Shown here: one piece after another, positions 1,035-17,489 of the stretch | Position numbering within the stretch: the stretch's first letter is position 1 | Layout of the letters: each line of letters begins with the position of its first letter | Assembly: GCA_035631875.1 (NCBI GenBank) | Contig: DASQHX010000010.1 | Location: 62,001-126,000, forward strand | Direction of reading: 5' to 3' | Length of the DNA stretch: 64,000 bases | Source: Nitrosopumilaceae archaeon | GTDB lineage: Archaea > Thermoproteota > Nitrososphaeria > Nitrososphaerales > Nitrosopumilaceae | Notes under the pieces: model-generated | What the model was told of the DNA's origin: nothing | The model's database searches: none | Seen by the model: the letters and a program-made list of their open reading frames with translations, nothing else | Translations under genes and position numbers: made by a program

Positions 1035-1838
1035 CTATTTCACTGACCAAACAGTATCAGTACCATTATTTCCGAAAACTCCATTTTGTAGGTTAGCGGT
1101 ACATGTTACATGATTGGCTACATTGGTTGACGAATTGGTTATAGCGTATACGTATTTAAAAAAAGCCGTACCCCCACTTTGCAAATAAGGATATGAAGGT
1201 GGCAAGGGTCCAGATTTTGCTGTGTAAGAGTCTACACCAAATGCCCTGCATGAAAAATTTGGTTGCAGATTTGTTAACAGATTGCTACTTGTCATATTAT
1301 TTACAATCACAAAAAGGAATGTTGCATTATTACCAGTACGTACTGAACTTGGAACTGCTTCAAGTTGTAACCAAAGAGGTTTTACTCCAGGAGAACCCAT
1401 TGAAAATTGCATTGAATTTCCTCTACTTGTTATTAATTTCAAATTATATGAATAAAGTGGGTTTGCCCCTACGGGCATGCTCAGGCCTATGTTTTTTAGA
1501 ATTGAGCCTGGAGAGACAATACAATTATGACAATTATAGCTATTAGTCCAATCAACAACATTTGTAGTTGTATTTTGTACCCACATTCTTGTTATGTTTA
1601 TTGGAAGACTTCCACTGTTTGAAATAGCAACATTGAACCTTCCGTTAGTAATTTGGACACTGTATATGTCAAATTTTTCTTTACCTGTATCAATCATCAT
1701 TTGATTTTTTGCTAAAACTGATTGGTTAAAGCTATCTAAAACATTTAGACTAAATGTTACATATCCAACAGTAGTTACAATTGCAATTATTGCAAAAACC
1801 ATACCTACTACACTACTTAAGCCTCTTCTTGATTTCAT
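1035..1838 (-). CDS. Type IV pilin-like (minor pilin) protein
   Basis: 267 residues. It begins with a short basic segment, then SRRG followed by LSSVVG and a roughly 20-residue hydrophobic helix. This is a class III (prepilin/archaellin) signal, with cleavage expected after the Gly. The rest is a beta-rich, Asn/Ser/Thr-rich extracellular domain. It is a full-length paralogue of the first 265 residues of the 399-residue protein at 14248-15447. Its start overlaps the end of the preceding pilin-like gene by 4 bp, so the two are translationally coupled. It is likely a minor pilin or pseudopilin processed by the prepilin peptidase at 13511. Confidence 0.85.
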   Translation of the reverse strand: MKSRRGLSSVVGMVFAIIAIVTTVGYVTFSLNVLDSFNQSVLAKNQMMIDTGKEKFDIYSVQITNGRFNVAISNSGSLPINITRMWVQNTTTNVVDWTNSYNCHNCIVSPGSILKNIGLSMPVGANPLYSYNLKLITSRGNSMQFSMGSPGVKPLWLQLEAVPSSVRTGNNATFLFVIVNNMTSSNLLTNLQPNFSCRAFGVDSYTAKSGPLPPSYPYLQSGGTAFFKYVYAITNSSTNVANHVTCTANLQNGVFGNNGTDTVWSVK

Positions 1839-2311
1839 GGTGTCACTCTGGTTGTAACTATTGAACCGCGTTGGGTAATTACAGACATGTTGATAGAGGA
1901 TCCATTATGCCAATTGATTTGTGGTTGCACCCATGTGAAATTACCTGGAAGTATTGTTCCTAATGCCTTAGGAACTGTATAACAATTCGTCGAAGGGATA
2001 CACGTATTATTGAATTTTATTTGTGTGACATTTACTCCGATGCTTCCAACATTACGCAGAGTGATGTTAATACCTGATAATCCGCTGACTGGAATATGAT
2101 GCCTAAACCAAACATTTTCTATGGATAGATACTCACTAAGTGTATTACTTTTGCTTGAAGCAGAAGAAGCTAGATTAGATTCAGTTGTTATAACACTACT
2201 ATGAGACCATGCAACAAGTGTGACCCCTAATATTGTTGTACCAGTAAGCAACATTGCACCCACAATTGCTGAGCTTATTCCTCTTCTAGACTTGAGATGT
2301 CTCATTGTCAT
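1835..2311 (-). CDS. Type IV pilin-like (minor pilin) protein
   Basis: 158 residues with the class III signal SRRG/ISSAIV followed by a hydrophobic helix (residues about 12-30) and a small beta-rich domain with a C...C pair. It is a paralogue of the 158-residue protein at 17013-17489 and of the N-terminal third of the fibro-slime protein at 15463-17016. It is the first gene of a coupled pair and overlaps the next by 4 bp. Likely a minor pilin. An alternative start, MKSRRG, lies four codons in. Confidence 0.85.
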   Translation of the reverse strand: MTMRHLKSRRGISSAIVGAMLLTGTTILGVTLVAWSHSSVITTESNLASSASSKSNTLSEYLSIENVWFRHHIPVSGLSGINITLRNVGSIGVNVTQIKFNNTCIPSTNCYTVPKALGTILPGNFTWVQPQINWHNGSSINMSVITQRGSIVTTRVTP

Positions 2312-2997: not shown

Positions 2998-4011
2998 ATG
3001 AGTGGAGTTGGAAACCAATTAAATAGTAGAACCAAAGAGTTTAGTACTGCTAAAATTAGCGATGAAAAATTTACTTTAAATCTTAAAATTTCACAATTAA
3101 AACGTGATACGCATGCTCTTTCCAAAAATTATGATATAAAAAAATATCTTGATTCGACTAAATTTACATTTAATCCAGAAATATCAGAGCTCATACCAAA
3201 AGACACTCCGGCATATCTTGATAACGGCGAAAAATATGTTGAAAGAATAGGTAGAGCACTTGCCTTTTTTAGGCAGGTTGCACTGATTGGACCAAGCGGT
3301 ACTGGAAAAACTCACATAGTCTATCTTGTAGCTGAACTTGCAGGTCTTCCATTATGGGAAATTAACTGTGGTTTACAAACATCTGTGTTTGATCTTTTTG
3401 GAAGATATATTGGACTTGGAAAAGAAAATTGGATAGACGGACTTATTACCTCCTGGTGCAGAAATGGCGGAATATTATACCTAGATGAAGCTAACATGAT
3501 GAAACAAGATGTTGCAACCAAGCTTAATCCTATACTTGATCAAAGAGGACACATGGTATTAACTGAAAAAGATAACGAAATAATACAACGCCATAAAGAT
3601 GCATTTCTTATAATTAGTATGAACCCTGTATCGTCAGAATTTGCAGGAACTAAACCTATTAACGCTGCAATGAGACGAAGAATGAGTGTCTGGTTAAACT
3701 TTGATTATATGAGCGTTGGAACTAAAATAGATGAAAAAGAAATAGGTCTTATTGTAAAGATAACTGGTGTGCAAAGACAAATTGCAGAAAAGATTGTAAA
3801 GGTAGGAGCTGAACTAAGAAGACAGTATAAATCTGGCGAACTTCCTTATGGTCCATCTATTGGTGACCTGATCAACTGGGCAAAAATAGTGGCTGATGGT
3901 GCATCCATATTAGATGCCGGACAAGAAACAATAATTGCAATGACAAGTGATGAACCTGAGATTCAACAAATAGTTAGAAAGCTAGTTTGTAAGTTTGCTG
4001 AAATCACATGA
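2998..4011 (+). CDS. MoxR-type AAA+ ATPase (CbbQ/NorQ/GvpN-like)
   Basis: 337 residues. Walker A GPSGTGKT is at 98-105, Walker B LYLDEAN around D163-E164, sensor-1 Asn209 sits in the ISMNP segment, and an Arg cluster lies at 226-228. The layout matches the CbbQ/NirQ/NorQ/GvpN branch of MoxR ATPases, which remodel or activate partner complexes with a VWA-domain protein. The next gene encodes such a VWA protein and overlaps by 4 bp. Within the pilus locus the pair may act as a chaperone for pilus or surface assembly. That substrate assignment is inference. Confidence 0.9.
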   Translation: MSGVGNQLNSRTKEFSTAKISDEKFTLNLKISQLKRDTHALSKNYDIKKYLDSTKFTFNPEISELIPKDTPAYLDNGEKYVERIGRALAFFRQVALIGPSGTGKTHIVYLVAELAGLPLWEINCGLQTSVFDLFGRYIGLGKENWIDGLITSWCRNGGILYLDEANMMKQDVATKLNPILDQRGHMVLTEKDNEIIQRHKDAFLIISMNPVSSEFAGTKPINAAMRRRMSVWLNFDYMSVGTKIDEKEIGLIVKITGVQRQIAEKIVKVGAELRRQYKSGELPYGPSIGDLINWAKIVADGASILDAGQETIIAMTSDEPEIQQIVRKLVCKFAEIT

Positions 4012-5594
4012 TCGAAAAGCGAGAGACATTTTTTGATGTCGTTTATGATATTTTTTATAAAGTGGCAAACCAAACCCCTGAAAACGTTAGTTTTTTGTTC
4101 TCATATGAAGCAAATTACCCCTTGATTAACTTTAGACCACAGCTTGAACTAACTATGCCGTTACCAAAAATTCAGGATGGGAATTTTGTTTTTGAAGGTA
4201 TGGTTTTTGAGAATTCGGATAAAGGGAAGGCCGCTCTCTGGGGGCTGTTTTTGGCCTCGATCTATCACCTAGCAGCGCACGCAGCTGTTTCAAGGTACCA
4301 TGTTTATGCACAATGGTGTAAAAAAAAGACAGCAGATGTTTGTTGGAAGGTAATTGATTTTATTGAGGATATTGCAGTAGAGAAACACTTATCTGATAAT
4401 TATCCTGAAATTTGGAAGAATATAGTGAATATTAACACTAGTCTAATTTCTACACGTAACGATCAAAAAATCATTATACAAAAAAATAATTCTGATGAGA
4501 AAAAAAACTCAAAACTATATTGTATTGGTGATGAAGAAAGAATTGAAAAAATGAGACAAGAGATTCTTTCAACGGGAGTAAACCAAACCAATGAAGAAAA
4601 TACACTGTCCTATGCCGATGCATTATATGCTTCAAGAGGTCTAATTTCACAAAATGTTTTTCCATATGTAGAACATCATAACGATAAACAATTCATAAAA
4701 TTTGAAAAAAAGGGTGTTGAATTTAAAGTAGATGGATTATTTGAGAAAAATATAATATTATTAAATGAACTATGGGAGGAAAATGAAAAACAGAAATCCA
4801 AATTGCTTAGAAGATTTAAAAAAGGATTAAAGGGATTGAGTTTTGACTCAGTTATTATTCCGCCTGGTGATTTGCATAAATTTGAGGAAATAAGAATAAA
4901 AATTCTTCCCATGCTAAGAAAAATCCGTCAACAAGTGCGTATGATAGTTAATGTAGAAGACGATCCAAAATCTGATGAACTTGGCATAGTAAACATGCAA
5001 TTTGCAATACAAGCAATTGCATCAGAAAATACTAGTATGGATATTTATGATAGAGATACATTTAGACGAGCTGAAGAAGCTTGGTTAATTTTAGTAGATA
5101 CTAGTGCAAGCATGAAACTAAAATTTGATAAAATTAAAGAATTTGCAATATGTATTGCAGAGGCTGCCACCGAACTTACTGGAAAACCAGATGCTTGGGG
5201 CATGTACAGCTTTGATAACAATATTACAATTCTTAAAGATTTTAATGAGAAATACAATAATGAAGTAAAGGCAAGAATAGGATCTTTGAAGGGAGGCGGA
5301 CTATCTCTGCTTCCAGATGCTTTAGAGTTTTCTAGCAGAATTCTTGCATCAGACGCAAGAGAGAAAAAACATATCTTCATTCTTACTGATGGACATCCAT
5401 CGGGATATGACCAAATTGAGAAGCGTTTTGCCAAGGTTGTAAAAGTGATAGAAATGTCAAGTACATCACTTATAGCAGTGGGATTATCAAAGAAAATGGC
5501 TCGTAATTTCAGGAATTCTGTAAAAGGCTCTGATTTAAAACAACTTGTATCTAACTTTATTGCTGCGTATAGGGCTGTTTCTCTTGATATGTAA
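4008..5594 (+). CDS. VWA-domain protein, NorD/CbbO-like partner of MoxR
   Basis: 528 residues. The C-terminal von Willebrand A domain has the MIDAS motif DTSAS at 364-368, followed by a downstream TDG segment. The N-terminal half has a His-rich helix and an FIEDIAVEKHL segment that resembles the conserved helix of NorD/CbbO proteins. It forms a coupled operon with the upstream MoxR ATPase through an ATGA overlap. The last 18 nt of this gene are part of the repeat found again before the second pilin, so the duplicated block reaches back into this coding sequence. Confidence 0.88.
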   Translation: MIEKRETFFDVVYDIFYKVANQTPENVSFLFSYEANYPLINFRPQLELTMPLPKIQDGNFVFEGMVFENSDKGKAALWGLFLASIYHLAAHAAVSRYHVYAQWCKKKTADVCWKVIDFIEDIAVEKHLSDNYPEIWKNIVNINTSLISTRNDQKIIIQKNNSDEKKNSKLYCIGDEERIEKMRQEILSTGVNQTNEENTLSYADALYASRGLISQNVFPYVEHHNDKQFIKFEKKGVEFKVDGLFEKNIILLNELWEENEKQKSKLLRRFKKGLKGLSFDSVIIPPGDLHKFEEIRIKILPMLRKIRQQVRMIVNVEDDPKSDELGIVNMQFAIQAIASENTSMDIYDRDTFRRAEEAWLILVDTSASMKLKFDKIKEFAICIAEAATELTGKPDAWGMYSFDNNITILKDFNEKYNNEVKARIGSLKGGGLSLLPDALEFSSRILASDAREKKHIFILTDGHPSGYDQIEKRFAKVVKVIEMSSTSLIAVGLSKKMARNFRNSVKGSDLKQLVSNFIAAYRAVSLDM

Positions 5595-5692
5595 GTCAAA
5601 AATACATACTAGATCAGATAATAGAGCAGCTCCTTCAACTATGTAATAAGATATGTTCCCAATCAGAACAAAGAATAGAAAAGCAATCAGCG
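5583..5692 (+). repeat. Copy 1 of identical 110-bp pilin leader repeat
   Basis: Identical to 6662-6771 over 110 bp; the match extends to 5577/6656 with one mismatch. It holds the end of the VWA gene, the pilin 5' leader with an AAAATACATA TATA-like element, and the first 13-14 codons of the pilin. In the leader an ATG at 5641 is followed at once by two TAA codons in frame with the real start at 5653, making a start-stop element. Confidence 0.95.
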
Positions 5693-6342
5693 CTGTACTG
5701 ACCACCATAATTATCTTGGTCGCCTCTATAGTATTAGGAACAGGTGTGGTAGTTTATAGTACAAGCCTTTTCCAAAGCGGAGGATCGCAGCAAGCAATTC
5801 AAGTACAAGGACTAAAGGGATGGGTAGCATCCAACTTTACTCAAGGTTATTCATGGGGAGCTTTTGCTGTAAAAAATACAGGAGACAAGCTTGTGTCAAT
5901 CAATTCAATCACACTACGAGGTGTAGCCGTTCCATACACTAACATGTATTCTGACATAAATCAGACACAGACAGCTGCTAACTTTCAATCTCAGCTCATA
6001 ACAACAGGGATTAATAGTCTAGGAAATATGCAATCTAATCCTCTCACTGCATATCAAGTCGCTACTTGTCCAGCTGTTGTCACCACCAATGGTCTGCCAA
6101 ACGAAATTACTATCAGTGAAAACGGCACATCTGATGTAATACCTGCACCCTATTCCAGAGTACAGTTATGCCTTCTGCAGCAAAGTGGACCAGTTTCATT
6201 GTTACCTGGTAATATAGCGATTATCTACTTCAAGGATCCTAATGGACTGTATGGTACAACTGATGTAGGTGTCACATCTACAGTTAGTGTTCTAGCAGGA
6301 ACTGCGCCAGTTGCGCAAACAATCAGACTAGGAAGCAGTTAG
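5653..6342 (+). CDS. Major type IV pilin / archaellin-like subunit 1
   Basis: 229 residues. The class III signal reads KNRKA/ISAVLT followed by a hydrophobic helix to about residue 33, then an extracellular domain rich in Gly, Ser, Thr and Asn with two Cys. It is a tandem paralogue of the gene at 6732 (same length class, identical leader and first residues, diverged body). The start at 5653 is supported by the shared leader. A T-rich stretch follows the stop, which suggests a transcript end and high separate expression. Prepilin peptidase, motor ATPase and platform genes lie downstream. Confidence 0.88.
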   Translation: MFPIRTKNRKAISAVLTTIIILVASIVLGTGVVVYSTSLFQSGGSQQAIQVQGLKGWVASNFTQGYSWGAFAVKNTGDKLVSINSITLRGVAVPYTNMYSDINQTQTAANFQSQLITTGINSLGNMQSNPLTAYQVATCPAVVTTNGLPNEITISENGTSDVIPAPYSRVQLCLLQQSGPVSLLPGNIAIIYFKDPNGLYGTTDVGVTSTVSVLAGTAPVAQTIRLGSS

Positions 6343-6661
6343 AATTCAAATTCCAAACTCCTTTTTTTATTATTTTTATCAAATAAATAGTCTGTCTAAA
6401 TGAACAAATTGTCTGCAATTTTAACAATACCAGTACAGATTTTTGAAGATTTTATCAATCGATTTCTACTCTTGTTTGATAGAGGAAAGGATTTTTTCTT
6501 ATGCAACATCTGAATTATTAAATACCGTATCTTTTCGGAGGGAGAAAAATCTCAAAGAATTTGTTTTTTTGGGTAGTTACAAATCATAGGTATTATTACC
6601 GTACTTTTTGGTCAGGTGGCTTGTCACTCAAAATCATCCTTTCCACACACACGTGGTTTCC
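6343..6661. other. Intergenic spacer between tandem pilins
   Basis: It starts with a T-rich run (6362-6376) that could terminate transcription of the first pilin. The remaining roughly 280 bp show no convincing ORF or RNA. The right end carries an 18-bp fragment of the VWA gene tail (from 6656), the left boundary of the duplicated block. Confidence 0.6.
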
Positions 6662-6771
6662 CTTGATATGTAAGTCAAAAATACATACTAGATCAGATAA
6701 TAGAGCAGCTCCTTCAACTATGTAATAAGATATGTTCCCAATCAGAACAAAGAATAGAAAAGCAATCAGCG
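6662..6771 (+). repeat. Copy 2 of identical 110-bp pilin leader repeat
   Basis: Identical to 5583-5692, with an offset of 1,079 bp. Here the VWA gene tail, including its ATG-TAA end, is a non-coding relic. This shows that the copy arose by duplicating a segment starting inside the VWA gene, or by later gene conversion. Confidence 0.95.
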
Positions 6772-7448
6772 TAGTAATGACAACACTGATTATCTTAGTT
6801 GCTTCCGTAGTTTTGGGAACAGGAGTTGTATTATATGGTACAAGCCTTTTCCAGACAGGAGGACAGACTCAGGCCATCGCAACCCAAGGTGTCAAGATGT
6901 GGGTAAATGCCACATGTACTGGTGCAGCAGCTAATGGATGTCCAGCTAATACCGTAGCATGGGGTGCAGCAGCTATTAGAAACAGTGGAGACGTACTTGT
7001 ATCTGTCAATACAATACAGGTACGTGGTGTTATAATACCATTCAGCAGCTGGTATGTTGATACCAATAGTTCTCATACATCAGCCAACTTCCAAGCTCAG
7101 TTCATCTCAACAGGTACCTCAGTGTCTGGAATGATGCGCCAAAATGCATTTGCGTTTGGCCAAACAGCCACTTGTCCGACTCAGGTTCTGACAGCCGGTA
7201 TCCCCAATGAAATCACAATCAACGAACAGGGCACTCCTGATGCAACAGGCCAGCCATATTCGACCACGATGCTTTGTCTGAAACAAGCTTCAGGTCCTAT
7301 TGCATTAACACCTGGTGCTCAAATGATCGTCTACTTCAACGTGCCTGGCAGCGTAATTGGTCCAGTAGATTCTGGTTCTCAAGTAACTGCTAGCATCTTA
7401 GCAGGTAACGTCGGTGGACCAGCATCAATAACGGTAGCTAACTCCTAG
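6732..7448 (+). CDS. Major type IV pilin / archaellin-like subunit 2
   Basis: 238 residues, with the same N-terminus as the first pilin (MFPIRTKNRKAIS) and then a hydrophobic helix. The extracellular domain carries two extra Cys in a CTGAAANGC segment not present in copy 1. Base composition is visibly more GC-rich than in neighbouring genes, fitting a highly expressed structural protein. A hairpin plus T-tract follows, separating it from the ATPase gene. It may be the main filament subunit, with copy 1 as an alternative; which is used cannot be told from the sequence. Confidence 0.88.
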   Translation: MFPIRTKNRKAISVVMTTLIILVASVVLGTGVVLYGTSLFQTGGQTQAIATQGVKMWVNATCTGAAANGCPANTVAWGAAAIRNSGDVLVSVNTIQVRGVIIPFSSWYVDTNSSHTSANFQAQFISTGTSVSGMMRQNAFAFGQTATCPTQVLTAGIPNEITINEQGTPDATGQPYSTTMLCLKQASGPIALTPGAQMIVYFNVPGSVIGPVDSGSQVTASILAGNVGGPASITVANS

Positions 7449-7502: not shown

Positions 7503-9047
7503 ATGAAAGAAAGAAAGACAAAAACAGAGGAATTGACAAGTTTCTTATCAAATAATCTTGTTGATGAAAATCAAAACCAAGTTCCAAGTGGTTATAAAGT
7601 AATTGACAGATACGAATTAAATCCACCTTTTAGCTATGCACTTATTCTTTACAACAATGAAAAATCAGACTATCTGTATTTTGTCGATGAGCTAAAGCTA
7701 AACTCTGAGGAAGAAATAATCTTTCAAAGACTATATCATCTTATAGAGGAAAGTTTAGAGTCCACAGACGAGTCAAAAGGTGCTCCTAATTTTGAAGATC
7801 AACTAAACATGGTGATGAAAGAAAATGCAAAAATGTTTCTTAATATCTCTAGTGCAAGTCTTGAGAAGGTAAAATATTATTTAAGAAGGGACGTTAGCGG
7901 ATTTAGCATTATTGAACCAATAATGCGTGATGTAAACATTGAAGATGTTAGTTGTAGTGGTAGCAACAACCCAATTTACATTTGGCACAGAAAGTATGAT
8001 AGCATACCAACGAACATTCAATTCAACTCTGAAGAAAAACTAAATTCATTTATTTCAAGAATAGTTTTTAGAGCTGGCAAGCACGTTAGTGCAGCTTTTC
8101 CAATTACTGATTTAGCATTGCAGGGAAATCATAGAATTTCCGTGTTATATCAAAAAGAAGTTACACCTAAAGGAACAAGCTTTACAATAAGAAAGTTTAG
8201 AGATGATCCATATACTGTAATAGATCTTATCAAATATGGAACAATAAATCTGTCAATAGCAGCTTATCTTTGGATGTTGATACAAGAAAAGATGTCATTT
8301 ATAGTAATAGGACCAACTGGAAGTGGTAAAACAACAATTCTTAACGCCATACTAGGTCTTGTTGATCCAGAATACAAAATTTTTTCAGTTGAAGATGTAT
8401 CTGAAATAAATATCAACCATGAAAACTGGTTTACACTAGTGTCAAGATCAGGTTTTGGCTTGGGAGGAGAAGGTGAAATTGGATTATATGATCTAATAAA
8501 AGCAGGAGTAAGACACAGGCCTGATTATATTGTAGTTGGAGAAATTAGAGGTTCTGAAGCGTACGTTATGTTTCAGGCTATGGCTACAGGACATGGTGGT
8601 CTGTGTACTATGCACGCAGACAGCCTGGATTCTGCAATAAAAAGATTAGAGCAAAAACCGATGGATATTCCACCTGCGTATATTTCATTGATGAATTGTG
8701 CAGTAGTGATTAAAAGAATCAAAGAAAAAACTACAGGGCAAAGTAGTAGAAGAACAACGATGATATCTGAAATTGCTAACAACGTACCACCATTTACTGC
8801 ATTTTCTTGGAATCCAAAATCAGATTACTTTACAGAAAATCTTTCGTCTAGCATATTATTCCAGAGAATGGCAGATGCAACAGGAAGGGATTTACAACAA
8901 ATTTTAGAAGAACATCAGAAAAGAATTACAATTTTGAAATGGATGGTTGAAAATGATATTAGAAATTATAAAGATGTTTCAGAATTAGTCGGAAAATATT
9001 ATCGGGATCCTGAATCAATAATGAAAAAAATAGAAGAGACAAATTAG
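7503..9047 (+). CDS. Type IV pilus / archaellum-type secretion ATPase
   Basis: 514 residues. It is a GspE/VirB11 superfamily ATPase with Walker A GPTGSGKT at 270-277, a Walker B segment DYIVVGEIRG at 341-350, and a His box GHGGLCTMHAD at 363-373. Such hexameric ATPases power subunit insertion or extraction at the cytoplasmic face of the platform. The next gene, 4 bp on, encodes the platform, the usual pairing (ArlI/ArlJ, UpsE/UpsF, AapE/AapF). An archaellum would normally also have ArlH next to it; none is seen, so a pilus is favoured. A GGGA purine run precedes the ATG. Confidence 0.92.
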   Translation: MKERKTKTEELTSFLSNNLVDENQNQVPSGYKVIDRYELNPPFSYALILYNNEKSDYLYFVDELKLNSEEEIIFQRLYHLIEESLESTDESKGAPNFEDQLNMVMKENAKMFLNISSASLEKVKYYLRRDVSGFSIIEPIMRDVNIEDVSCSGSNNPIYIWHRKYDSIPTNIQFNSEEKLNSFISRIVFRAGKHVSAAFPITDLALQGNHRISVLYQKEVTPKGTSFTIRKFRDDPYTVIDLIKYGTINLSIAAYLWMLIQEKMSFIVIGPTGSGKTTILNAILGLVDPEYKIFSVEDVSEININHENWFTLVSRSGFGLGGEGEIGLYDLIKAGVRHRPDYIVVGEIRGSEAYVMFQAMATGHGGLCTMHADSLDSAIKRLEQKPMDIPPAYISLMNCAVVIKRIKEKTTGQSSRRTTMISEIANNVPPFTAFSWNPKSDYFTENLSSSILFQRMADATGRDLQQILEEHQKRITILKWMVENDIRNYKDVSELVGKYYRDPESIMKKIEETN

Positions 9048-9051
9048 TAAT

Positions 9052-10536
9052 ATGCTGTCTTTACAAAAACTCGGACGAGCAGACCATGAGAAAAAACAAG
9101 CCAAGAAAATAGAAAAAGAATTACCGTATTTTATTACAATAGTAACGTTGCTTGCAACAAGCGGATTAGGACCATACTCAATTCTACACAAGATAAAAGA
9201 TCTTAATCTTTTACCTGCAGTACGACACGAATCAATAAAAATTATTAAACGAATCGATATGCTTGGGCTAGATCCACTTACTGTATTGAGCCAAGCAAAA
9301 GAAAAAACCTCATCTAGATTACTTGGAGATTTTCTCGCAGGCTATGTGTCTGCAATTCAGAGTGGTGGAAATGTAATAAATTATCTGAAAAGCAAGATGT
9401 CAAGCTCCTTTGAAATGCTTGAGGCCAAAGAAAAAGGATCAATAGAAAAGATAAGTGGAATTGTACATGCTTACCTTACCATGCAGATAGTAATATTGGC
9501 TGTATTCATTCTAGTGGCAGCTGTAGGTTCAAATCCGTTATCAATAACTCCCGGAGCTAGTACAGCAGCTAATTTCAGTCCACCTTATCAGATATTGATA
9601 TTTCCGCCAATAATGTCACTAGTGTTCCTCAAAGTTGCACAGAGGTTTAATTATTCCAACATTAGCGAACTTCCGGTAAAAAAGATACTTAGATTTGGCT
9701 TGCCAGCAATGCTGATTTCCATAATTCTGGTTTTCAGTAATATTCTGTCTAGTTTTCATGCTAATGCATATGTTGTTGGCATAGGACTAGTGGCCGCATC
9801 ACTATGGCCTGCTTTACGTTTCCAAAAAATATATACAAAAAATCTGGATGCTGAAACAGCCACACCGCAAATTTTGCGTGATATAACAGAAGCAAGAAAG
9901 TCAGGACTAGGCCCAGAAAAATGCATCATACGTGCCTGCAAGAGAAAAGATTACAGAACGTTTAACGTTATAGCAAACACAATATCAAATAAATTAGAAT
10001 GGGGTATACCCATGAATAATATCTTTGATTCACTTTATAGTGAAGTAAAGAATTTCCAAGTACTTGTTAGTTTTAGAATATTATTTGAGATAATTACTTC
10101 TGGTGGAGGAAATGTAACCACCCTTGATTCACTAGCTGACACTAGTGAAAAAATCTATGACATTGAAAAAAACAAGCGCGAAATGCTCAAACCATACATC
10201 ATGGTAGGTTTTATGTTAATTACTATAACTGGATTTACTACCCTATTAACTATAGACTCGTTTGCATCAATTAATCAACAATCACGACCAGGCAGTGCGC
10301 AGTTAAGCAGTGAATATATTGAGCAAACAAAATCTTTCTTTGATCTTATTTGTATGGCAGTTATTGTACAGGCTTGGCTTGCCGGCTTGTTTATTGGTAA
10401 AATTACAAAAGGTGCATTTTCAGGCGGATTTCTTTTTTCTATAATTCTTGTCATAATTACAATGGTGTCAGTAGATATGATACAAATACATATTATCAAT
10501 ATCAGCTCGATCATGAAAAGTTCAACTCCGATCTAA
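9052..10536 (+). CDS. TadC/ArlJ-like pilus assembly platform protein
   Basis: 494 residues with two T2SF-type cytoplasmic regions, each followed by hydrophobic segments (about 145-165, 175-255, 380-405, 425-490; roughly seven membrane helices). This is the layout of archaeal ArlJ/TadC proteins, the membrane core onto which pilins are added. It starts 4 bp after the ATPase gene. Family membership is recognised from the architecture and the ATPase pairing. Confidence 0.88.
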   Translation: MLSLQKLGRADHEKKQAKKIEKELPYFITIVTLLATSGLGPYSILHKIKDLNLLPAVRHESIKIIKRIDMLGLDPLTVLSQAKEKTSSRLLGDFLAGYVSAIQSGGNVINYLKSKMSSSFEMLEAKEKGSIEKISGIVHAYLTMQIVILAVFILVAAVGSNPLSITPGASTAANFSPPYQILIFPPIMSLVFLKVAQRFNYSNISELPVKKILRFGLPAMLISIILVFSNILSSFHANAYVVGIGLVAASLWPALRFQKIYTKNLDAETATPQILRDITEARKSGLGPEKCIIRACKRKDYRTFNVIANTISNKLEWGIPMNNIFDSLYSEVKNFQVLVSFRILFEIITSGGGNVTTLDSLADTSEKIYDIEKNKREMLKPYIMVGFMLITITGFTTLLTIDSFASINQQSRPGSAQLSSEYIEQTKSFFDLICMAVIVQAWLAGLFIGKITKGAFSGGFLFSIILVIITMVSVDMIQIHIINISSIMKSSTPI

Positions 10537-10597: not shown

Positions 10598-13015
10598 TTG
10601 AAAGTAGCCTTGACCTTGGTTTTAATGGGAATTATTGTATTTTCTACTGGTGCGTATGGACAAACTCCAAGTGAATTAAGCTACAGACTCATTCCAAATA
10701 AAATATTACAAAACAGTGAAGGAGTTTTACAGGTATATGACAATTCTGATGCTGCTCCAAAAAACATAGAAAAATTAGTGGCCACATCATCAGATTCCTC
10801 TATAATACAAATATCTGGAATAGAACAAGATGAAAATAATTTTGTAACAGATGTAAAGATAAAAACAGGAAATGCGGGAACTGCAAACATTGCACTTGCA
10901 GCACCAGGGTTTTCACCAAAAGAATTTGCTATTACTGTGTATAGTAATAATGATGTCCCAACAAAACTTTTAATTAAAACAACACCTAATACGTTCTCCG
11001 CTACAGGTCCACAAGAAGGATATGTCTCCGTAGAACTTGTTAATGATGCTAATTTCCCAACAAGAGCAGCTGAAGATACTCCAGTAACACTGTCAACATC
11101 AAATAGTGATATTTTAAATTTAAAAAATAATACAGTTGTAATAAAAAAAGGTGATTATTTTGTAATTACTCAATTTGAAGTAAAAAAAGGCGGTAGTGCA
11201 CAGATATTGGCATCAGCGCCATCACTGCAAACTGTAAGTAGTACAATAACTGTTACTAGTAACACAAATCAACAATCAATTCAGCTATTTGTTTATCCTA
11301 ATAACATTAATGATTATTATAATTCTAATGCTTATGTAATAGTTCAACTCCACGATTCTGCAGGAAATCCAGCACGTGCAACAAGTGACATACCTATTTC
11401 TGTACAAATTACTGATACTTCTCAAAACGCGATTGTAAATACTAGTACACAAACTCCATTAATGTCTTCAGATGAACCTCTTGTGATTAAGAAGGGTTCC
11501 TATTGGGGATATTCAAAACTAGTTGTCAATTCTGGTACTAGTGATACATTTAGCATCAGTATTTCAGCGAAAGATTACACAGTTCCGGCATCAATATCTG
11601 TGACACCAAAACCTGGTCAACTTTATGATACTAAATCTGCAAAAATAGATCTTTTGCCAATCTTAGCTACCGGACAAAAAGAATTAGTCGGAGTTTTACA
11701 TTTGGAGGACAATAATGGTAATCCTGTTATAGCCAGTAACGATTTTCTAACAACGGTGGATTCGTCAGACCAGACTTCACTTTCAATAGATAAGGTACAA
11801 ATGAATAAAGGAGAAGATGCAGCCCTTGTATTTGGTAATGTAGGAAACACACCAAACGCAGTCACATTAAATGTACTAACACAAACTGTTCAGACACTCA
11901 GTCCAACAATAACAGTTCCAACGCAGAAAACTTATACGCTTGTTGCAGAATCGCTCATTCCTTACGTGTTTTCACATGATAATTATCCCACTGCAGTATA
12001 CATGTTAGATAGCAGTAATGCTCTTACAACTTTCCCAAAAGATTTGAACACTTTCATTACTCCAAACGACTATGTACAAATTGAATCTAAACCATTGTTA
12101 GCGGATCAATCAATCATATCACTAAATACTCAATCATTAAAGGAGGGAACAACCACAGTTTCGCTTATGGCAGGAGATTATCAGAGTAAAATAAAAGTCA
12201 ATAATCTTTCTTCAAAACCTTCCTCCGTTTTTGTAGATTATCCTTCAAAATTATTATCAAATCTAAATAATACCTTCTCTATACAACTTCTTAATTCACA
12301 ACAATTGCCAGTTTTTGCTGATCACGACATGAATCTTAAACTTGTTTCATCCAATCCATCAATAAATGTGCCAGAGAGCGTGACCGTTAAAAAAGGTGAG
12401 TATTATTCATTATTTGATGTAGATGCCAATAATGCCGGTACTACAGAACTTGCTATTTTATCAAACGAACTCCCATTAACAAAATATGATATTAGTTTTA
12501 CCAGTTTAACTCCTCAAGTAAGTATTGCTTCAAACGATTATGTAGACCCAAATACAGTTTTTGTTGCTACAGTTAATGCAATGTATCAGGGAGTTCCATT
12601 GAATGGAATGAAGGTAGATTGGAGTGTAACTGGGGCTGCAATCCAGAACAAGGATTCTTTAACAGATAAAGATGGTAACGCAAAGATCTCATTACTTGCA
12701 CAAGATCCTAAAACGATAAACCTTGTGGCTACAGTATCAGGAGCAGTGTTTGGTGCAACACCTGCCAGTAAAACTATAAATGTAAATCAGCCATTAGGTT
12801 CTACGATAGGGTCCAATACAACACCAAACTCCACTTCATTTAGCCTGTTTGGAATTAACCCGATGTTTATTCTCATCCCAGTAGCAGCTGCTGCAGCAGG
12901 GGGCATTATAATTCTCAAAAAGAAGAACATGCTTGATGGCATTACAGAAAAAATCAGCATCATGGAAAAAATTTCCGGAATAAAGGATAGAATAACTCAG
13001 TTACGTGAAAAATAG
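10598..13015 (+). CDS. Large secreted Ig-like repeat protein with C-terminal anchor
   Basis: 805 residues from a TTG start that lies about 30 nt after a TTATAT promoter element. An N-terminal signal peptide ends near residue 22. The body has about five or six beta-sandwich repeats that share a K(K/E)G-aromatic turn (IKKGDYF, IKKGSYW, MNKGEDA, VKKGEYY), like bacterial Ig-like/invasin folds. One transmembrane helix near residue 760 is followed by a basic cytoplasmic tail of about 35 residues. It could be a pilus-base or cell-envelope scaffold, or an S-layer-associated adhesin. Placement between platform and peptidase genes argues for a pilus link. Confidence 0.85.
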   Translation: MKVALTLVLMGIIVFSTGAYGQTPSELSYRLIPNKILQNSEGVLQVYDNSDAAPKNIEKLVATSSDSSIIQISGIEQDENNFVTDVKIKTGNAGTANIALAAPGFSPKEFAITVYSNNDVPTKLLIKTTPNTFSATGPQEGYVSVELVNDANFPTRAAEDTPVTLSTSNSDILNLKNNTVVIKKGDYFVITQFEVKKGGSAQILASAPSLQTVSSTITVTSNTNQQSIQLFVYPNNINDYYNSNAYVIVQLHDSAGNPARATSDIPISVQITDTSQNAIVNTSTQTPLMSSDEPLVIKKGSYWGYSKLVVNSGTSDTFSISISAKDYTVPASISVTPKPGQLYDTKSAKIDLLPILATGQKELVGVLHLEDNNGNPVIASNDFLTTVDSSDQTSLSIDKVQMNKGEDAALVFGNVGNTPNAVTLNVLTQTVQTLSPTITVPTQKTYTLVAESLIPYVFSHDNYPTAVYMLDSSNALTTFPKDLNTFITPNDYVQIESKPLLADQSIISLNTQSLKEGTTTVSLMAGDYQSKIKVNNLSSKPSSVFVDYPSKLLSNLNNTFSIQLLNSQQLPVFADHDMNLKLVSSNPSINVPESVTVKKGEYYSLFDVDANNAGTTELAILSNELPLTKYDISFTSLTPQVSIASNDYVDPNTVFVATVNAMYQGVPLNGMKVDWSVTGAAIQNKDSLTDKDGNAKISLLAQDPKTINLVATVSGAVFGATPASKTINVNQPLGSTIGSNTTPNSTSFSLFGINPMFILIPVAAAAAGGIIILKKKNMLDGITEKISIMEKISGIKDRITQLREK

Positions 13016-13510: not shown

Positions 13511-14215
13511 ATGGCAGAATTAGTTTTTGATATTCATAATCTACAGATCTTTTCAGCACTTGTCATGCTTGGAATTGCTTCTGTATTGGATATCTGGAAG
13601 CGAGAAATTCATGACATTTTATGGATTGCCTTTGGGGCTGTTGCTATTTTATTAATCATATTTTCACCAAGTCCTCTTGATTCTCTGAAAACAAGTGGAT
13701 TTTCCTTAATTATTGCCCCTGTTGTCATAATCATATGGAGAACTGGCCTTTTTGGAGGGGCAGATGCACTAGGATTGATAGTCTTGGCAGCATTAGCGCC
13801 TCAGGCAATTTTGTCTCATGGTATTGTTACTCCTTTTACCACCTTGACAAACGCTGCTATATTTTCAATTACACCGATATTTGCAAACGTTATTCGTAAT
13901 ATTGTATCTATTTCTTTACACAAAAATATTTTTGATGGGTTTGAAGAAACCAGACTAAAAAAGATACTGGCTATCTTTCTTGGATATCGCGCTAAAAATC
14001 CAAAATATAGCTTTCCAATCGAAAAGAAAGAAGGTAATCTCAGAAAGCTTGATTTTTCATTCCATCATGCAGAAAATGCCCAATTTTGTTCCACCTCAGA
14101 TACTTGGGTGACTCCAGGTATACCATACATATTATACATAACTGCCGGATTTGTATTTCAACTATTATCTGGAGATATTATTTTTAATGTAATACATAAT
14201 GTCAAAGTGATTTAA
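13511..14215 (+). CDS. Prepilin/preflagellin aspartic peptidase (PibD/ArlK type)
   Basis: 234 residues, multi-spanning. The two catalytic aspartates of the GxGD/A24 family are visible: D27 in the SVLDIWKREI segment and D85 in the FGGAD motif. It cleaves class III signal peptides after Gly/Ala before the hydrophobic helix, so all seven pilin-like proteins of this window are likely substrates. It sits downstream of the pilus machinery with its own upstream region. The C-terminal extension after about residue 140 is soluble and longer than in minimal PibD. Confidence 0.88.
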   Translation: MAELVFDIHNLQIFSALVMLGIASVLDIWKREIHDILWIAFGAVAILLIIFSPSPLDSLKTSGFSLIIAPVVIIIWRTGLFGGADALGLIVLAALAPQAILSHGIVTPFTTLTNAAIFSITPIFANVIRNIVSISLHKNIFDGFEETRLKKILAIFLGYRAKNPKYSFPIEKKEGNLRKLDFSFHHAENAQFCSTSDTWVTPGIPYILYITAGFVFQLLSGDIIFNVIHNVKVI

Positions 14216-14247: not shown

Positions 14248-15447
14248 CTAAGTAGGATCAAATTCGACTGTAAACGTAACATCTCCATTTGGTAGGAGAT
14301 TTGAAAATTGTATCGCCATGGCAACTGTATCTCCAGCAATAACACTTACTGAATGTGTTTTATCAGGACATGATGTTCCAGTAGTACAAGTGACTCCAGA
14401 TGATACCCCATTCTTGTATAGCGTCAAAGTAGCAGTACCTGTACCAGTTCCTTTATTCACGTACAAGTCTTTGAATGTACCATTAATTGGCATAATAATG
14501 CTTTTTAGATTATAAGTTGAACTTGGTTTGCTATCTCCAAAAAATCTCAAATAATTTAATGATGTGCTGGATATTGTGCCATTTAATCCTCCTCCCATAA
14601 TTGTTTTTATGATCGGAAGCCCTTGAATCTGGGTGATGGTAGCGTTTCTTGAGACAGAATTTCCAAGATAGCCATTTTGAAGTGATGCAGTAAAGTTGAT
14701 TCCTTGTCCACTATTTCCTGAAATATTATAAACCCATTTGAAATATGCAGTGTCTCCTTTTTGTAATATTGGATATGTTGATGGTTCTGGGCCTGAAATC
14801 ATTGTTGTAGTAGCACCAATAGGAGTTGCAATACTAAGATTTGGTGCAAGGTTTGTTAATATTCCATTATTTGACATATTATTTGTAACCGCAAAAAGTA
14901 TTGTTGTATCAAACCCCGTTGAAATCTTATCAGGTAAAACAAAAAGCTGGAGATAAAGAGGTTTTTGACTTGCAGAATTTACCAAAAACTCTTTGGTGTT
15001 TCCTCTTTCTGTTACTAGGGATATATCATATGCCTGAGAAGGTTTCGCAGTAAGTTGGAGGTTCTCGCCTATCTTGGTAAGAGTTTGCCCTGGCGCTACA
15101 ATTTGGTTTATAGTAAATTTTGTGGTAGGCCATGTAGGATCTGTTTTATTTTGAATCCATAATCTAGTAATGTTTACAGGAAGTTGACCCGTATTTTGTA
15201 TTGTAATGTTGAATTTGTTATTGTCTTTAGTAACACCTGTGATTTCAAAAGCTTCGTTATTTCTGTTTATGTTGTCTTGGCCTTTACCAATAACGGCTAC
15301 TCCAAATTGATCTATCTGATTCATACTATAAATTACATAAGATGCAATTGAGGTGAAGATTATAATAAAAAATACGCTTCCTATTACAGTACTTATTCCT
15401 TTTCTATCTCTCATCTCTTTTCCAAATATTGTGTTATGATGTTTCAT
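14248..15447 (-). CDS. Minor pilin with extra C-terminal beta domain
   Basis: 399 residues. The class III signal RDRKG/ISTVIG is followed by a hydrophobic helix (about 18-43). Residues 45-275 are paralogous to the 267-residue protein at 1035-1838. Residues about 285-399 form an added beta-rich domain containing GTFKDLYV and TLYKNGV motifs and a CTTGTSC loop. From memory this resembles jelly-roll domains of phage and bacterial surface proteins, possibly ligand-binding. It is third in the operon 17489 to 14248. Likely an exposed minor pilin. Confidence 0.85.
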   Translation of the reverse strand: MKHHNTIFGKEMRDRKGISTVIGSVFFIIIFTSIASYVIYSMNQIDQFGVAVIGKGQDNINRNNEAFEITGVTKDNNKFNITIQNTGQLPVNITRLWIQNKTDPTWPTTKFTINQIVAPGQTLTKIGENLQLTAKPSQAYDISLVTERGNTKEFLVNSASQKPLYLQLFVLPDKISTGFDTTILFAVTNNMSNNGILTNLAPNLSIATPIGATTTMISGPEPSTYPILQKGDTAYFKWVYNISGNSGQGINFTASLQNGYLGNSVSRNATITQIQGLPIIKTIMGGGLNGTISSTSLNYLRFFGDSKPSSTYNLKSIIMPINGTFKDLYVNKGTGTGTATLTLYKNGVSSGVTCTTGTSCPDKTHSVSVIAGDTVAMAIQFSNLLPNGDVTFTVEFDPT

Positions 15448-15462
15448 TTTTTGATCGGATCC

Positions 15463-17016
15463 TTATTTTGTATTGGTAAAGGTGCAAGTAGTTATTCCTC
15501 TTGGTACTGTAATTGTAATCTCAGTGGAATTTGGAAGAGTATATCCATTATTGCACTGTCTACCAATTAGTGTCCATCCTGGAGGTATCAATTCGTTGAC
15601 AGTATATTTGCCTGGATCTACAAAAAACGCGCTTGTAGTTCCAACACCATTTTGACCAAGTTGAATAGAAGTAGTTATTGCCATATCAGAACTTACAGTA
15701 TGACGTTCTGCATAAAAAAAATCAAAATCATAGGTACCACCAAGTGTAATACCAAGTAGGGCTTTCTGTTGGTCCAAGTTTAATACTTTATTTTCTGCAG
15801 CGTGTACTCCACCTAAATCAATAGCAAGTTTGTGATTAATGAAAACAAACACATCGTCATCACCAGTGAAGTTAAAAATTTCTCCACCTTGATATGTGAA
15901 TGTGGAATGAACCATAAATGTAAAACCATAATTATGGTATTTTCCAGATCCATCTTTACCGCTACAACTTGTTCCGATACCTTGGCAAAATAATTGGTTG
16001 TCTATAGGATAGAAACTATAGTTAGTATATTTCCAAATAGCAGGTTGTAATGGAAGTACTCTACCAAGTGTGAGGTTAAAATTTTCCCATTTGTTTACGC
16101 CAGGAGTATCATGATACCATTGATTAAATCTGGTCATTCCATAGTTGAAGAGAGATCTGGTATGATTGTTATACACAGGCGTGTGATCGGCACCAAGATC
16201 GGGTAGAACTATGCCGTTAAAAGTTCCATTTGGCCAAGTATATCCAGTATAATTTCCAAAAGGACAGTTTGGTGGTTTAGAACAATCCATTTCGAAATCT
16301 GGGTCTCTTCCTTGTAGACTATCCCCTTTATCGTTTGATCCATTAAAATCACGAATTACACCCTGCATGATGAGATTTCCATTTTTATCTAGATTTGCTC
16401 CAGTGCTCCAACCTGTTGTATTTACATTAAATTTTCCTAAATCTCCATTGAAACTAAAATTACCGTTACCTAATTTTGAAACCTTATTGATAATTAACAC
16501 ACCGTCAGCTGGAGATATCAAATGGAAATGAAATATTGAACCTCGATCTGTTGTCACATAAACATCAAGAGGATCCCCTAACCAGTAATAGTGAACTACT
16601 CCTGTGTATATCCCATCTGGAACAATTCCTCCATTAGCAATATGTGTAATTTGGTGAGTTGGACCGTCGATTTCGATCTGAGTAACATGAAGGCCATCTT
16701 GACCGTTATTTTTCAGTACAAGGTTAAGGTTTTGATTAGGAGTATTGTACCAAAAATGTTCCAGTACAAGGGATTCTTTAACTTGATTTATTATATTAGA
16801 ATAAAAAGAACCTGTAGCTTGTTCTCTAGTGTGAAGATTACTCTGAGACCAGTAAACAGATGTTGTGCCCATGACAGAAACAGCTGAAAGCATAATTACT
16901 GTAGTAACAATACTTGAAATCCCTCTTCTGCTACTATAATGTGCCTTATCTTTGATACGTGGTACTGGTTTCTCAAAAATTGTTTTTACAATATTTAACT
17001 CATTTCCATTATTCAT
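15463..17016 (-). CDS. Fibro-slime/SpaA-domain minor pilin, likely tip adhesin
   Basis: 517 residues. The class III signal SSRRG/ISSIVT (28-38) and hydrophobic helix lead into a minor-pilin domain to about 170, homologous to the 158-residue gene upstream. Residues 173-201 (GNGNFSFNGDLG) look like the first strands of a SpaA-like domain. Residues about 205-455 are a fibro-slime domain, recognised by IRDF, DPDFE, HNYGFTF, GDDDVFVF, DLGGVH and FYAERHT. Residues 456-517 resume the SpaA-like fold with PGKYTVNE, PPGW and CTFTNTK. It overlaps the preceding gene by 4 bp. A carbohydrate- or surface-binding tip is inferred. Confidence 0.88.
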   Translation of the reverse strand: MNNGNELNIVKTIFEKPVPRIKDKAHYSSRRGISSIVTTVIMLSAVSVMGTTSVYWSQSNLHTREQATGSFYSNIINQVKESLVLEHFWYNTPNQNLNLVLKNNGQDGLHVTQIEIDGPTHQITHIANGGIVPDGIYTGVVHYYWLGDPLDVYVTTDRGSIFHFHLISPADGVLIINKVSKLGNGNFSFNGDLGKFNVNTTGWSTGANLDKNGNLIMQGVIRDFNGSNDKGDSLQGRDPDFEMDCSKPPNCPFGNYTGYTWPNGTFNGIVLPDLGADHTPVYNNHTRSLFNYGMTRFNQWYHDTPGVNKWENFNLTLGRVLPLQPAIWKYTNYSFYPIDNQLFCQGIGTSCSGKDGSGKYHNYGFTFMVHSTFTYQGGEIFNFTGDDDVFVFINHKLAIDLGGVHAAENKVLNLDQQKALLGITLGGTYDFDFFYAERHTVSSDMAITTSIQLGQNGVGTTSAFFVDPGKYTVNELIPPGWTLIGRQCNNGYTLPNSTEITITVPRGITTCTFTNTK

Positions 17017-17489
17017 GGCGGTAGTGCCTGTGTTGAAATTGTTGTACCTCTTACTGTAGTGACCTGAATGTTAGTAAGCACATTACTACTATATGCATAT
17101 GGAACTAGTATTGATCCTGTTCTTTGTGGTAAAATTGTCTGATTGCCATAATGAAATTGAATGGTTTTGGTTGATGTACTAAACTGTATTTGTGTAACAT
17201 TTAGGCCAACACTACCCTGATTATTCAAAGTGATGTTAACTGCTGGAACAGATTTACCTGGACAGTTACTTTGAATTTGACAAAACCAGATTTTTTCTAT
17301 TATTAAATTTTCATTAATTTGATTTACATTGTTAGAAAAAGATCTTGCCATAGTTCCTTCATTACCAAAAATGTTTGAATGTCCCCATGCGACAACTCCG
17401 CTACCCATGACAGCGACAGTTGTAAGCATTATAACAGTTGTAACTATAGTAGCTAGTCCTCGTCTAGACCTTTTCCGCACTCTTTTCAT
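17013..17489 (-). CDS. Type IV pilin-like (minor pilin) protein
   Basis: 158 residues. A strongly basic N-terminus with the class III signal SRRG/LATIVT is followed by a hydrophobic helix and a small beta-rich domain with a Cys pair. It is a paralogue of 1835-2311. It is first gene of the operon that continues with the fibro-slime pilin and the 399-residue minor pilin; the stop overlaps the next start by 4 bp. Confidence 0.85.
   Translation of the reverse strand: MKRVRKRSRRGLATIVTTVIMLTTVAVMGSGVVAWGHSNIFGNEGTMARSFSNNVNQINENLIIEKIWFCQIQSNCPGKSVPAVNITLNNQGSVGLNVTQIQFSTSTKTIQFHYGNQTILPQRTGSILVPYAYSSNVLTNIQVTTVRGTTISTQALPP

Follow-up and report, generated by a model that had tools for sequence, protein, structure and literature searches.

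A pilus locus of a Nitrosopumilaceae archaeon encodes a 517-residue protein that we consider likely to be a minor pilin serving as an adhesin on an archaeal type IV pilus, in which a stalk domain split into two halves presents a probable glycan-binding domain. The gene lies in the window, by which we mean the whole stretch of 64,000 nucleotides analysed (contig DASQHX010000010.1, positions 62,001 to 126,000). Its features are listed below in the order of the protein, with residue numbers of the 517-aa product, a slash marking the predicted cleavage and the grounds for each assignment in brackets.

15463..17016, minus strand: modular pilin gene, 517 aa (class III signal, pilin module, split SpaA_4 domain, inserted fibro-slime/PA14 domain)
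16921..17016, minus strand: leader to the predicted class III cleavage site, residues 1-32, ...SSRRG/ISS (sequence, TIGR02537, G32)
16846..16920, minus strand: hydrophobic N-terminal pilin helix, residues 33-57 (sequence; homology to adjacent pilins)
16513..16845, minus strand: pilin head domain, residues 58-168 (likeness to adjacent small pilin; Foldseek)
16411..16503, minus strand: SpaA_4 N half, residues 172-202, with invariant Lys178 (chimera scores; alignment to intact domain)
15649..16410, minus strand: insert, residues 203-456, fibro-slime/PA14-type domain (TIGR02148, profile, models, tree)
15658..15939, minus strand: TIGR02148 fibro-slime core, residues 360-453 (TIGR02148 match)
15853..15861, minus strand: GDDDV aspartates, residues 386-388, at the position of the PA14-lectin DcisD calcium motif (putative calcium role)
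15703..15711, minus strand: AER, residues 436-438, invariant, candidate second calcium-binding loop (putative role)
15466..15648, minus strand: SpaA_4 C half, residues 457-517, with invariant E475, C488, C511 and N515 (chimera scores; alignment to intact domain)

The open reading frame was found on the minus strand as an earlier, sequence-only reading had described it, and the class III pilin signal claimed there holds in part: the motif RRG/ISSIVTT (within SSRRG/ISSIVTTVIML) is recognisable by eye and plausible, and G32 is invariant across the ten aligned split-SpaA fibro-slime pilins, but the corresponding signal model, TIGR02537, has a cut-off of 20 bits and gives the signal 15.6. The minor-pilin domain named in the same reading is borne out by residues 26-169, which are 39% identical to the small pilin next door, and the head, modelled at low confidence, matched the P. 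calidifontis pilus 8fk7 in Foldseek. By domain searches and homology the protein thus combines a pilin module with a domain that is not pilus-specific, the composition of a modular pilin. Profile searches retrieved TIGR02148, PA14 and SpaA_4 in all ten members; an assembly artefact as the source of the architecture was ruled out, since other genomes show the identical domain order.

The insert carries a fibro-slime domain, as signatures in its translation had suggested. The NCBIfam model TIGR02148 matched residues 360-453 along its whole length (positions 1-90 of 90) at 110 bits (cut-off 45; E = 6e-32), and Pfam PA14 matched residues 360-452 at 28.3 bits (cut-off 24). The fibro-slime unit exceeds TIGR02148, which spans its C-terminal core alone; it begins at an IRDF...PDFE motif and measures ~240 aa in the 517-aa protein and ~200 aa in other proteins. 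AlphaFold2 modelled the core at pLDDT ~70-88, and its nearest Foldseek matches were MpPA14, MhPA14, Flo1, Flo5, Epa1 and a Kluyveromyces beta-glucosidase, with absolute TM-scores that were low because the model is confident only in part. Profile matches and models together support assignment of the unit to the PA14 lectin fold. In PA14 lectins the DcisD pair binds a sugar-holding calcium with the assistance of a second loop (PMC8092209, PMC6650083, PMC6218569). D387, D388 and E437 are invariant in all 21 archaeal fibro-slime domains aligned, and D387-D388 are tentatively placed at the DcisD strand turn by the 6qdi PA14 alignment, by the fold match and by motif spacing relative to the verified Flo1 sequence; comparison of the archaeal fibro-slime profile with Flo1 and Flo5 by hhalign gave no meaningful alignment and did not align the calcium motif. 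From sequence and models, the inserted domain is probably a calcium-dependent glycan-binding domain.

Within the family, TIGR02148 occurs in 18 of 250 genomes, and in a 398-genome sample of the phylum it is confined to this family. The pilin form was found in the window, in one genus-mate (MAG TA_20) and in genomes of the Nitrosotalea type, among them those of Ca. N. devanaterra and Ca. N. bavarica; the split-SpaA architecture is common to nine relatives from Nitrosotalea and its neighbours, which answers the question, raised by the first reading, of whether other archaeal pilins bear the domain. In a tree of fibro-slime domains those borne on pilins group together with support of 99/99, consistent with one insertion event. 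Elsewhere in the family a profile made from the archaeal inserts located the domain (~200 aa) in other genera, where the proteins that bear it are either secreted and as long as ~1,980 aa or shorter. Among these, a set of secreted proteins (L054-L060), some with two fibro-slime domains, is encoded at a conserved site of the chromosome, and several have a very large repeat protein as neighbour. Fibro-slime domains are also encoded on plasmids of Nostoc (47% identity to the archaeal domain) and Calothrix (38%), that of Nostoc sitting inside a very large RHS/Ig-repeat protein (L081:5900-6600). The domain had been taken as one described for Fibrobacter and slime moulds; its range is wider, and the archaeal and cyanobacterial copies rule out a restriction to those organisms. 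No relative was found among the viral contigs searched, which leaves a viral origin unsupported, and SpaA_4 queries run against plasmids and phages gave no match.

The gene is embedded in a cassette with the order small pilin, fibro-slime pilin, large pilin, which the window shares with eight relatives and which adjoins the pilus operon in most Nitrosotalea-type genomes; in a MAG from Centralia (L045) no pilus operon was seen in the 20 kb examined. Comparison of cassettes shows that their content varies. In a genome of the same genus (G004) the cassette occupies the equivalent position and lacks the fibro-slime gene, the small and large pilin genes overlapping directly, and the gene is therefore accessory. 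Nine loci (L084-L092) from four other genera (g3, g4, g14, g18) also have the cassette without the fibro-slime gene, and there the large pilin, 815-1055 aa, carries a LamG/ConA-like lectin domain, called by Pfam in three of the large pilins and in six more by a profile made from the Pfam-positive ones. LamG was looked for in all fibro-slime cassettes and found in none; a few loci (those of G004 and G045 and one of G052) have neither domain. Upstream of the window, the window's own genome encodes a second modular pilin of 975 aa (L082:3797-6724; G000:C10:55796-58723) with DUF2341 and a C-terminal LamG/ConA-like domain, so that the exchange holds by cassette and not by genome. A fibro-slime domain on one pilin and, in related archaea, LamG on the neighbouring one point to pili with exchangeable adhesive heads. 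More tentatively, we propose that ammonia-oxidising archaea have a single pilus locus whose minor-pilin cassette takes interchangeable lectin modules, either a PA14/fibro-slime module within the split SpaA domain or a LamG/ConA-like one borne by the large pilin, which lineages swap to suit the surface or partner; the PA14 version would perhaps have a covalent Lys178-Asn515 clamp. The conserved cassette and the replacement of one lectin-type module by another in sister genera also support the pilus adhesin proposed in the sequence-only reading.

A different use of the insert would be to bind no outside substrate and instead to fasten the pilus onto its own cell, through S-layer glycans or exopolysaccharide, or to join pili together, which would make the protein structural or cohesive. 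The secreted proteins of related archaea that carry the domain resemble surface-layer or matrix proteins, as such a role might entail; presentation on a split stalk of a pilin, and the LamG replacement in sister genera, better suit the binding of an outward ligand, and we judge docking to the own surface unlikely. The adhesin reading draws further on the genes with which the pilin is encoded, listed here with their grounds.

17013..17489, minus strand: small pilin (158 aa), cassette gene 1 (4-bp overlap with the fibro-slime pilin gene)
14248..15447, minus strand: large pilin (399 aa), cassette gene 3 (UpsA-like pilin N-terminus, 29 bits, cut-off 130)
13511..14215, plus strand: prepilin peptidase, FlaK-like (Arc_PepC_II / Peptidase_A24)
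10598..13015, plus strand: 805-aa Ig-like protein of the pilus locus, secreted/membrane (domain search, locus comparison)
9052..10536, plus strand: TadC/T2SSF platform protein (domain search)
7503..9047, plus strand: pilus assembly ATPase, T2SSE (domain search)
5653..7448, plus strand: two pilin genes (229 and 238 aa), probable major pilins (domain search: no specific family)
2998..5594, plus strand: MoxR-type AAA ATPase and VWA protein, conserved in the locus (domain search, locus comparison)
1035..2311, minus strand: second cassette, without a fibro-slime gene: small pilin 1835-2311, 267-aa pilin 1035-1838 (locus comparison)

The fibro-slime pilin is thus encoded together with a pilus ATPase, TadC and a prepilin peptidase, the equipment of an archaeal type IV pilus. 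The second small-/large-pilin cassette flanks the same operon on its other side. Residues ~280-399 of the large pilin at 14248-15447 resemble a small beta jelly-roll (GTGTATLTLYKNG...VIAGDTVAM), for which a family search gave no match; this C-terminal part may be a further binding head. Sulfolobales have substrate-binding proteins with pilin signals, and the 517-aa protein might likewise be a pilin-like, bindosome-like sugar-capture protein whose signal serves surface assembly and which is not a filament subunit, a thought encouraged by weak matches of the adjacent large pilin to BasA and UpsA. We hold this to be improbable: no transporter adjoins the fibro-slime pilin gene, and the locus is a full pilus operon of pilins, ATPase, TadC and peptidase.

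The stalk of the proposed adhesin is a SpaA_4 domain interrupted by the insert. In the intact protein Pfam SpaA_4 (PF24514) matches residues 424-517 at 30.7 bits (cut-off 27.3), the HMMER match overrunning into the C-terminal end of the fibro-slime domain. When residues 203-456 were deleted in silico, residues 172-202 joined to 457-517 and the chimera rescored, the SpaA_4 match rose to 45.4 bits and took in profile positions 2-107 of 107, the C half by itself scoring 28.2 bits; in three homologues the joined halves scored 43.4, 48.2 and 47.8 bits against 31.4, 31.1 and 29.3 for the C half alone. Thirty-two control chimeras with the same C half (20 with shuffled N halves, 12 with other stretches of the same protein) scored lower, the best at E = 3.2e-8 compared with 1.6e-11 for the true join. 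Against an intact SpaA_4 domain from another archaeon of the family (L070), itself scoring 60.3 bits, the N half lines up with positions 1-33 and the C half with positions 50-102; no other stretch of the protein fits positions 1-33 as well as the N half does, and its score is matched by three of 5000 shuffles. Since the halves align to consecutive parts of an intact domain, the insert occupies one domain loop. We therefore regard as confirmed, at the level of sequence profiles, that a SpaA_4 domain is split into two halves around an insert of ~254 aa; both halves lie where they had first been read by eye, and the controlled chimeras and the co-linearity support the reading of a domain insertion. 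That the segments are independent pieces of no common domain is very improbable: in its favour stand the low AlphaFold2 confidence for both (pLDDT < 50 in full-length and trimmed models, built from alignments of 10 sequences only) and the failure of a home-made SpaA profile, made from divergent archaeal repeats, to single out the N half, probably because its repeats form a different subgroup, and against it the chimera scores in four members, with all 32 controls lower, and the co-linearity of both halves with one intact archaeal domain.

Five residues of the split domain, K178, E475, C488, C511 and N515, are invariant across the ten members aligned; K178, E475 and N515 fall at what we take to be the positions where SpaA/CnaB domains of Gram-positives form Lys-Asn isopeptide bonds with the help of a catalytic Glu. 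Judging by these residues, a Lys178-Asn515 isopeptide bond could, hypothetically, form and, with a C488-C511 disulfide, clamp the N half to the C half under pulling force. In the assembly we envisage, the prepilin peptidase would cut the class III signal and the hydrophobic helix would pack into the filament, at its tip or close to it, leaving the extra domain turned outward as proposed by analogy with the modular pilins PilB and PilC. The split SpaA domain would act as a rigid bracket aiming the inserted domain outward, by analogy with RTX adhesins, and the insert would bind glycan through calcium held by D387 and D388 and by the second loop around E437. In sister genera the LamG/ConA-like lectin on the adjacent large pilin would fill the equivalent role.

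How ammonia-oxidising archaea attach to particles, roots and other cells is little understood, and the protein offers a well-defined candidate adhesin that can be expressed and that occurs in two named species, Ca. Nitrosotalea devanaterra and Ca. N. bavarica, with candidate residues for calcium, glycan and isopeptide chemistry that can be tested. Modular pilins, including bacterial ones with PA14, are already known, as are split-domain RTX adhesins. The open-access literature (subscription papers being outside our scope) yielded no description of archaeal fibro-slime/PA14 or lectin-bearing pilins, and the archaeal split-SpaA version and the swapping of modules appear to be undescribed. The protein would carry the bacterial principles of the modular pilin and of the split-domain adhesin over to archaea, combining both in a single molecule.

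Several known systems share parts of this design. In RrgA-type tip adhesins of sortase pili a VWA domain interrupts an arm of the Cna/SpaA type; the archaeal protein likewise has a putative adhesive domain interrupting a SpaA/CnaB-like stalk domain, but it has no sortase signal, its assembly would depend on a type IV pilin helix, and its insert is PA14-like. In Fibrobacter succinogenes, fibro-slime proteins annotated with PA14 have been tied, along with type IV pilins, to cellulose adhesion (PMC4668043, PMC6851124). The domain is common to those proteins and to the archaeal pilin; in Fibrobacter it is found on surface or secreted proteins that are distinct from the pilins, whereas the archaeal domain is part of a pilin. 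RTX adhesins with PA14/CBM lectins project ligand-binding domains from split domains (PMC12077191), among them calcium-dependent PA14 lectins (PMC8092209, PMC6650083), and here too a PA14-type domain, putatively a calcium-dependent lectin, would project from the beta-sandwich domain it interrupts. The RTX adhesins are giant, fibrillar, type I-secreted proteins with Ig-like split domains, in contrast to a pilin of ~50 kDa with a SpaA_4 prealbumin-like split domain. In Streptococcus sanguinis the extra domains of the modular pilins PilB and PilC are the parts that bind host proteins and glycans, and PA14 is listed among the modules of bacterial modular pilins (PMC8179133, PMC9934059). As in PilB and PilC, a pilin module for assembly bears a bulky, here putative, adhesive or lectin module, and three minor pilins are encoded together; unlike them, the protein described here is archaeal and its module sits inside a split SpaA domain instead of being joined by a linker, and it differs from the bacterial modular pilins in its fibro-slime subtype of PA14, in its signal and in its pilin family.
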